From Marinobacter alexandrii (GTDB lineage Bacteria > Bacteroidota > Bacteroidia > Cytophagales > Cyclobacteriaceae): a stretch of 64,000 nt of DNA. Under the pieces are notes generated by a model. It saw only the letters and a program-made list of their open reading frames with translations. It was not told the origin of the DNA and did no database searches. Positions 3,755-4,261 of this stretch are shown here, piece by piece; position 1 is the first letter of the stretch, and every line of letters starts with the position of its first letter. Made by a program: the position numbers and the translations under genes. Where the stretch lies: positions 2,426,501 through 2,490,500 of the forward strand of contig JBDWTN010000007.1 of assembly GCA_039984955.1 (NCBI GenBank). The letters run 5' to 3'.

Positions 3755-3827
3755 GCGAGAGTAGCTCAGCTGGTAGAGCACAACCTTGCCAAGGTTGGGG
3801 TCGCGGGTTCGAATCCCGTCTCCCGCT
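3755..3827 (+). tRNA. tRNA-Gly (GCC)
   Basis: A complete 73-nt cloverleaf. The anticodon stem CAACC/GGTTG encloses loop TTGCCAA (anticodon GCC), the T arm contains GGTTCGAATCC, and the discriminator base is U73, as expected for Gly. CCA is not encoded. The acceptor stem GCGAGAG/CTCCCGC contains an A4-C69 mismatch where G-C would be usual. Confidence 0.95.
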
Positions 3828-3832
3828 CAATG

Positions 3833-3872: not shown

Positions 3873-3930
3873 GCCTCGGTGGAGGAACCTGCCTGCGGTA
3901 GGTAGGTTGGTTAACACGCAGGACTTAAAA
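3873..3930 (+). pseudogene. Duplicated 5' half of tRNA-Leu(UAA), decayed
   Basis: Apart from a 19-bp insertion (3888-3906), this segment matches the first 39 nt of the intact tRNA-Leu at 4169 with 3 differences: acceptor 5' strand, D arm, anticodon 5' stem and the whole anticodon loop. Similarity stops exactly after TTAAAA, which is the last base of the anticodon loop. Next come CTAT and the start codon of the GIY-YIG ORF. The differences and the insertion in the D region show that it is no longer a functional tRNA part. Confidence 0.85.
3888..3906. repeat. 19-bp GC-rich palindrome inserted in the tRNA half
   Basis: CCTGCCTGCGGTAGGTAGG can fold as a 7-bp stem (CCTGCCT/AGGTAGG, one G-U) with a 5-nt loop. 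It interrupts the D region of the duplicated tRNA-Leu half and is absent from the intact copy, so the two boundaries of the insertion are visible. Confidence 0.75.
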
Positions 3931-3934
3931 CTAT

Positions 3935-4167
3935 ATGTTTTACGTTTATGCTATTAAAGTGAAGAGAGAAACTACATTTACGTAGGTCTTTCAAATAATC
4001 TCAAAAGGAGATTAGAGGGACATAATGGAGGAAAGAATAAAACAACAAGACCATACAGGCCTTTTGTTTTAATTCATTCAGAATCCTTTGAAACTAGAAC
4101 TGAAGCTAGAGAAAGAGAAAAATATCTTAAATCTGGCATTGGTAAAGACTTTTTAAGAAGTCTATAA
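3935..4167 (+). pseudogene. GIY-YIG nuclease domain protein, frameshifted
   Basis: Translation from the ATG at 3935 gives MFYVYAIK and then runs into TAG after 16 codons. A one-base shift near 3957 restores the rest: NYIYVGLSNNLKRRLEGHN, then KTTRPYRPFVLIHSESFETR and EAREREKYLKSGIGKDFL, ending at TAA 4165-4167. These are the hallmarks of short single-domain GIY-YIG proteins (about 80 aa): YVY and YVG strands, catalytic Arg, and the Glu-containing helix. The length of 233 nt is not divisible by 3, consistent with one missing A in the AAA run, so this is either a real frameshift or a sequencing error. The stop lies one base before tRNA-Leu, and a duplicated half of that tRNA precedes the ORF. 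The catalytic chemistry of the family is metal-dependent phosphodiester cleavage; activity here is doubtful. Confidence 0.85.
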
Positions 4168-4168
4168 T

Positions 4169-4253
4169 GCCTCGGTGGTGGAATTGGTAGACACGCAGGA
4201 CTTAAAATCCTGTGACCATTGCGGTCGTGCGGGTTCAAGTCCCGCCCGAGGTA
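4169..4253 (+). tRNA. tRNA-Leu (UAA)
   Basis: An 85-nt class II tRNA. The anticodon stem CAGGA/TCCTG encloses loop CTTAAAA (anticodon TAA). It has a long variable arm (TGACC/GGTCG-like), a T arm with GGTTCAAGTCCC, and the acceptor pairing CCTCGG/CCGAGG with a G1-U72 wobble and A73. The gene starts one base after the stop codon of the GIY-YIG ORF, so 5' maturation by RNase P would cut directly behind that ORF. Confidence 0.96.
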
Positions 4254-4261
4254 CTCTTAAG

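Follow-up and report, generated by a model that had tools for sequence, protein, structure and literature searches.

A small element pairing a GIY-YIG nuclease gene with a hairpin-interrupted tRNA copy recurs at bacterial tRNA genes

We describe an element of about 350 bp that is found repeatedly at tRNA genes in Bacteroidota and in several further bacterial phyla. It consists of a GIY-YIG reading frame with an intact tRNA gene on one side and a partial, hairpin-interrupted tRNA copy on the other, and it is found in two mirror forms. The 5′ form (copy–ORF–tRNA) begins with a partial 5′ region of the tRNA that carries a hairpin insert; the ORF comes next, and its stop codon touches or overlaps the intact tRNA. 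In the mirror arrangement, the 3′ form (tRNA–ORF–copy), the intact tRNA, usually with its terminator, is followed by the ORF, a partial tRNA 3′ region with a hairpin and a second terminator. This looks like a minimal selfish element specialised on tRNA genes, and apparently one that has not been described. Judging from genome comparison, our best model, which we hold to be probably correct but with considerable reserve, is a homing element of minimal size that resides at tRNA genes and encodes a free-standing nuclease.

Results

A GIY-YIG frame between two copies of tRNA-Leu(UAA)

The window, a stretch of 64,000 nucleotides from a genome of the genus Ekhidna, contains one such locus, with the following features:

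3755..3828, + strand: tRNA-Gly(GCC), the neighbouring gene, also beside the empty site in relatives (ARAGORN)
3873..3887, + strand: partial tRNA-Leu(UAA) copy, nt 1–15, with one mismatch (alignment to the intact tRNA)
3888..3906, + strand: palindromic hairpin insert P, CCTGCCTGCGGTAGGTAGG, in the D-loop of the copy, a degenerate CCTGCCTGCCGGCAGGCAGG
3907..3930, + strand: partial tRNA-Leu copy, nt 16–39, with two mismatches, ending on the 3′ side of the anticodon loop
3935..4167, + strand: GIY-YIG nuclease reading frame (PF01541), apparently a pseudogene by a 1-nt deletion near codon 9
4169..4254, + strand: intact tRNA-Leu(UAA), the sole full-length match in the genome (ARAGORN and genome comparison)

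The copy is separated from the GIY-YIG frame by 4 nt, and the frame from the intact tRNA by 1 nt. A sequence-only reading of this DNA had proposed the order half tRNA, GIY-YIG ORF, intact tRNA-Leu, and every part was found where it had been placed; the similarity between half and whole tRNA also ends after TTAAAA, as claimed. The half had been called decayed. It does carry mismatches, but it is in addition split between nt 15 and 16, in the D-loop, by the 19-nt palindrome, which had gone unmentioned. The ORF likewise has the expected domain (PF01541, E 4e-19 for the read-through protein), but it is 1 nt short compared with its 231-nt relatives, so that start and stop lie in different frames. 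The window copy would therefore be either a frameshifted pseudogene or one that contains a sequencing error. Intact orthologues of 77 codons are present in Ekhidna lutea DSM 19307 (genome G141, same genus as the window genome; locus L005, also named L136) and in a second species of the genus (L006/L137).

The GIY-YIG frame is the only ORF between the two tRNA copies, where we found no tyrosine or serine recombinase. Since the window genome holds no second full-length match to it, tRNA-Leu(UAA) is presumably essential. Outside the window, the same genome encodes a second, distant relative at tRNA-His(GUG) (L002/L106, G000:C7 near 2023215), where the intact tRNA is followed by the ORF, a hairpin-bearing copy of the tRNA 3′ part and then another ORF copy, which is truncated.

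The ORF family resides at tRNA genes of many isotypes

Homologues were detected in 78 of 196 genomes of the family (E ≤ 1e-12), and a search of 148 genomes of the phylum with the distant homologue at tRNA-His as query gave matches in 27. Flanks were available for 120 loci. A tRNA gene is found no more than 150 nt away in 95 of them, and in all 95 it is on the same strand as the ORF. As a control we used the relatives of L003, another small GIY-YIG protein of the window genome: 0 of 29 loci lie within 150 nt of a tRNA, and only one has any tRNA in the locus. The targeted tRNAs are Leu, Arg, Met, Ser, Pro, Lys, His, Asn, Asp, Ala, Gln, Glu, Val, Phe, Gly and Thr. Because the same layout is seen in dozens of genera, the window arrangement is not due to chance. 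The earlier proposal of a unit that targets tRNA genes was thus supported: the unit is recurrent, and its ORF family is strongly enriched at tRNA genes.

Several of the loci more than 150 nt from a tRNA contain repeated tRNA 3′ pieces and resemble arrays with the intact tRNA further off. A clade of related GIY-YIG proteins (L063, L069, L088 and L090) has no tRNA nearby, and two of its loci, L063 and L088, are flanked by CCCCGTAGGAT-type repeats. In L128, a relative in reverse orientation (ORF 1501–1761) abuts an RNase P RNA gene and overlaps its start. Here rnpB-like pieces precede the ORF, and this may be the same arrangement at a second kind of structured RNA gene.

Alignment detected a partial copy of the neighbouring tRNA on the far side of the ORF in 124 of 149 loci; a copy was counted when it exceeded the 99th percentile of 892 control windows taken from these loci. 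A test by contiguous alignment against permuted tRNA regions proved too stringent, since the copy is split by P and tRNA pieces are also present at other loci. The copy normally represents the local host tRNA, acceptor stem included, which suggests that it is regenerated at each target and speaks against the earlier idea that a unit with a fixed 5′ tRNA half had been imported. We noticed two exceptions in Patescibacteria: in L214 the copy differs from the intact tRNA, while in L190 a different, twice-interrupted tRNA-Leu(UAG) follows an intact tRNA-Leu. Since the dead copy differs from the intact tRNA-Leu in both, these sequences suggest that here the intact tRNA came with the element and displaced the host gene.

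Two further points of the sequence-only reading did not hold in general. It had described the element on the 5′ side of tRNA-Leu(UAA); mirror elements lie downstream of tRNAs, and many other tRNAs are targeted. It had also taken the anticodon loop as the general boundary of the copy. Insertion strictly at the anticodon loop was rejected, as the ORF-proximal copy end in Leu-type loci mostly varies between nt 23 and nt 45; the exact end in the window is therefore one case among many.

Empty and occupied sites at one locus suggest homing

The sequence-only reading had called for an empty tRNA-Leu locus in related genomes, and such a site was found in four genomes of the same genus (L097–L100), which have tRNA-Gly and tRNA-Leu(UAA) with no element. 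Compared with these, the window and the occupied loci L005 and L006 hold about 300 extra bases. In the empty locus L099, a terminator-like flank after tRNA-Gly leads directly into the intact tRNA-Leu. The nearly identical flank in L005 leads into the partial copy, the palindrome and the ORF before the intact tRNA is reached. Locus L101 has a decayed ORF. Occupied and empty alleles of one locus, as expected of a free-standing homing endonuclease, thus coexist within the genus Ekhidna.

We infer DNA cleavage of the tRNA gene, followed by homing. A single-domain GIY-YIG endonuclease specific for one isotype would cut an element-free tRNA gene at or near its loops, and repair from an element-bearing molecule would copy in the ORF and the hairpin, with recombination through the short stretches of tRNA that flank the ORF. 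As the tRNA is partial on one side and whole on the other, the product would always keep one intact tRNA and one disrupted copy. In the loop of the copy, the hairpin probably serves to mark the cleavage site or to block it, and repeated cutting followed by recombination between copies could generate tandem arrays. A recoded resident tRNA was ruled out, since the tRNA-Leu of the occupied locus L096 has the same sequence as that of the empty L099. For the same reason the resident intact tRNA should itself be cuttable, which counts against homing. This and the further misfits described below leave room for hairpin mobilisation, for a toxin with a decoy, and for domestication.

Clade-specific hairpins sit at stem–loop borders of the tRNA copies

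The Leu-type insert, CCTGCCTGCCGGCAGGCAGG or a close variant, is shared by elements of Patescibacteria, Ignavibacteria, Omnitrophota and Bacteroidota whose proteins are mostly only 62–75% identical to that of Ekhidna lutea. Strict mapping identified 76 insertions of P in the tRNA copies of 63 loci, a few Arg loci among them. The junctions fall after nt 14–15 (D-loop, 38 cases), 22–23, 26, 32 (anticodon-loop border) and 60–66 (T-loop border), with few elsewhere, and the preferred stem–loop borders are mostly D-loop 14/15 and T-loop 62–66. These sites are a more regular feature of the element than the anticodon-loop boundary. Other nuclease clades have other hairpins at comparable places, often two in tandem in the Ser and Glu clades and in place of the anticodon arm in Met, Asp and Gln. 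Where one genome holds two element types (G100, G078), two hairpin types are found, so hairpin type varies with the nuclease clade and not with the genome.

A second P-like hairpin, at the tRNA 5′ end, is polymorphic in Allomuricauda. In L188, L202, L203 and L208, this second hairpin, of TGTCATGCCTACGGCAGACA type, is found precisely at the 5′ end of the tRNA, the copy or both; L195, L205 and L209 lack it.

When P sites were sampled by sequence alone, several proved to be inside tRNA copies that neighbour an intact tRNA but have no detected ORF (L223, L229, L230, L232, L233, L234 and L235; Leu, Arg, Val and Gln), possible ORF-less derivatives of the element. Other sampled sites occupy repeat-like intergenic positions; in L217, L218, L221 and L228, P stands between short repeats (for example TCTAAAA on either side, or GGATGA repeats) with no tRNA nearby. 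A search of the literature for the P sequence found no match. We rejected the idea that P is an abundant dispersed REP, since a relaxed pattern finds only about four sites in the window genome and none of 118 family genomes has more than nine exact ones.

The recurrence of hairpins at stem–loop borders and the ORF-less hairpins are left unexplained by homing and count against it, and recurrent hairpins suggest a second activity. P could itself be the mobile unit and the GIY-YIG protein its mobilising enzyme, comparable to REP/RAYT, with structure-specific cuts at stem–loop borders and disrupted tRNA copies as by-products of repair. The 76 insertions at D-loop, anticodon-loop and T-loop borders would fit such an activity, as would a hairpin type set by the nuclease clade, the occurrence of P without the ORF both in tRNA copies and elsewhere, the polymorphic second hairpin in Allomuricauda, and Slx1, a branched-DNA nuclease, among the nearest folds. 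However, P is rare genome-wide, and P alone explains neither the tRNA duplication nor the ORF arrays. We regard this reading as unlikely but credible.

The nuclease tree follows the tRNA isotype, and the Leu clade spans several phyla

The tRNA isotype changes 23 times on a protein tree of 88 labelled loci, compared with a mean of 54.7 and a minimum of 49 after shuffling. Host genus gives almost no signal on the same tree (76 changes versus 80 shuffled), and the nuclease tree therefore follows the tRNA isotype and not the host genus. We scanned 84,980 species genomes for the Leu clade, which yielded 351 relatives, and fetched the best 80, of which 12 were earlier places again. Among these best 80 of 351, an intact tRNA lies nearby in 69, in every case tRNA-Leu, and nine of the other 11 keep tRNA-Leu pieces around P. 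The hosts of the best 80 belong to Bacteroidota, Ignavibacteriota, Balneolota, several groups of Patescibacteria, Omnitrophota and Verrucomicrobiota (at least six phyla), which are interleaved on a poorly resolved tree of the clade (15 changes versus a shuffled mean of 20). Misbinning could affect single metagenome records, but the tRNA-Leu genes of L158, L161 and L193 in Patescibacteria have an encoded CCA, unlike those of Bacteroidota. Carriage by phages or plasmids was rejected: annotated phages and plasmids gave matches of less than 46% identity, and 2.9 million viral contigs gave two.

Isotype specificity would also be expected of a toxin directed at tRNA. The protein would then cleave the tRNA of one isotype as RNA, and the loop-disrupted copy would serve as a decoy that binds the protein but resists cleavage. 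Such a role could account for the frequent replacement of the anticodon arm or of a loop by a hairpin in the copies, and for the strong purifying selection on the ORF. On the other hand, many copies are fragments of 23–45 nt that are unable to fold as a tRNA, the nearest folds are DNA nucleases, and an RNA toxin need not reside at its cognate gene or keep the empty-site structure. A toxin with its decoy is in our view unlikely.

The nuclease is conserved, under purifying selection and amplified in arrays

Residues Y5, G18, R26, E62 and K66 are invariant in 58 diverse members. AlphaFold predicts one domain (pLDDT 96.7), with every residue of the 77 aa within the GIY-YIG fold, and the nearest solved folds are UPF0213 (1zg2), Slx1 and the catalytic domain of I-TevI. 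With the PF01541 match, these data place the protein in the GIY-YIG superfamily. The separate DNA-recognition domain of homing endonucleases is missing from this single domain of 77 aa, and the lack of any obvious DNA-reading part in the predicted structure argues against homing.

Close pairs have dN/dS of 0.03–0.10, after frame-misaligned pairs with ratios near or above 1 (L175, L186, L209) were left out. Seven loci of Allomuricauda/Flagellimonas share both the tRNA-Leu(UAA) at which the element lies and the position of P; the species differ in whether they have the second hairpin at the 5′ end of the tRNA. The ORF is a pseudogene in the window, L101, L142 and L147. The longest array, L065 (G096:C1:3226018–3230740), comprises two tRNA-Asp genes followed by 14 tandem units of 346 nt. 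Neighbouring units are 94–99.7% identical, and in every unit inspected hairpin TCCCGATCCTCGGGA stands in place of the anticodon arm of the tRNA-Asp copy. A relative has the same two tRNAs and one degenerate ORF. Taken together, the empty sites, the arrays of up to 14 units, the invariant catalytic residues and the dN/dS ratios point to an element that is active and maintained.

Very low dN/dS and long vertical maintenance are unusual for a transient homing gene and count against homing; the strength of purifying selection suggests a lasting function or addiction. The protein could have been domesticated for a host function at tRNA genes, for instance control of tRNA supply or shielding of the tRNA gene from integrating elements. 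Its long maintenance at the same tRNA-Leu in Allomuricauda/Flagellimonas, with dN/dS of about 0.05, would agree with this, but its presence is patchy, as in the 78 of 196 family genomes, and pseudogenes, arrays and spread across phyla are at odds with it, making domestication quite improbable. Seen by itself, the window would look the same if it held what is left of an ordinary tandem array of tRNAs and an unrelated ORF lay in between, an outcome that the sequence-only reading had named as refuting its own proposal, but the same layout at many isotypes, the enrichment over the control subfamily and the empty sites reject this explanation, to which we give hardly any credence.

Discussion

Beyond the homing model, we tentatively consider a bolder possibility, that these elements are two-part mobile systems of a new class. 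In such a system, a GIY-YIG nuclease with isotype specificity and a clade-specific DNA hairpin, inserted at stem–loop borders of tRNA genes, would disable one copy, keep an intact one, and spread across phyla with no integrase, intron or transposase. If our interpretation is right, the element would be among the smallest autonomous selfish elements known in bacteria, at about 350 bp with a single 77-codon gene. Its sites, specific to the isotype, would be tRNA genes that are essential and present in one copy, in six or more phyla, among them Patescibacteria with their reduced genomes. It would also account for a large set of annotated small GIY-YIG genes and broken tRNA copies. It raises the questions of how a protein of one GIY-YIG domain singles out one tRNA family, how the resident tRNA avoids being cut, and what the conserved palindrome does in the dead copy.

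Comparison with known systems

The GIY-YIG fold, free-standing homing genes and their association with tRNAs in phages are already known. The small GIY-YIG proteins of UPF0213/YazA type (PDB 1zg2) have the same size and fold and are the best structural match (yazA is 43% identical over 83% of the query). To our knowledge they have no association with tRNA, and the control subfamily, which is related to them, is not found at tRNAs, unlike the 77-aa family.

Group I introns with GIY-YIG endonucleases occur in tRNA-Leu(UAA), and thus share the target gene and the nuclease fold with the window element, as the sequence-only reading had noted. Such an intron interrupts a functional gene and splices itself out, whereas here no intron is seen, the ORF lies outside an intact, uninterrupted tRNA and the interrupted copy is kept separately. 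Integrative elements at tRNA attachment sites also rebuild the tRNA with one end and leave a partial duplicate. The elements described here differ from these in their size of about 350 bp, in having both 5′ and 3′ versions and in having no integrase, and the window locus contains neither a tyrosine nor a serine recombinase. In REP/RAYT systems, short palindromic inserts are linked to an enzyme encoded alongside, as they are here. The RAYT enzyme is of the Y1 (HUH) type, whereas the only ORF here is GIY-YIG and the hairpins are few and concentrated in tRNA copies. In agreement with the sequence-only reading, which knew of no prior description, we found no chromosomal, isotype-specific element of about 350 bp, free of integrase and intron and with a hairpin-interrupted tRNA copy, in the open-access literature or in a 2006 survey of the GIY-YIG superfamily.

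From our analysis, the nearest precedent is SegB, a free-standing GIY-YIG homing endonuclease of T-even phages (PMC13096335; PMC2988022, table 1). SegB is encoded among tRNA genes, cuts within phage tRNA genes in vitro at the motif RAWTSGAAC, and it must be active for tRNA plus segB to be amplified in tandem (PMC13096335). By our own reading, the opposite strand of this motif would correspond to the tRNA T-loop, where some of the hairpins of our elements are located. SegB and the 77-aa family thus share the GIY-YIG catalytic domain, a location at tRNA genes (95 of 120 loci here) and tandem amplification of tRNA with nuclease. They differ in that SegB has a C-terminal region, whereas the 77-aa proteins have no residues beyond the catalytic domain and hence no similarity there; the PHROG endonuclease and homing endonuclease families gave weak matches, in the nuclease region only. 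Neither an isotype preference nor a hairpin-bearing partial tRNA copy has been reported for SegB, unlike the elements here, and SegB is a phage enzyme, while the 77-aa family is almost absent from phage and viral collections. If the homing model is right, the elements described here would be chromosomal counterparts of SegB.
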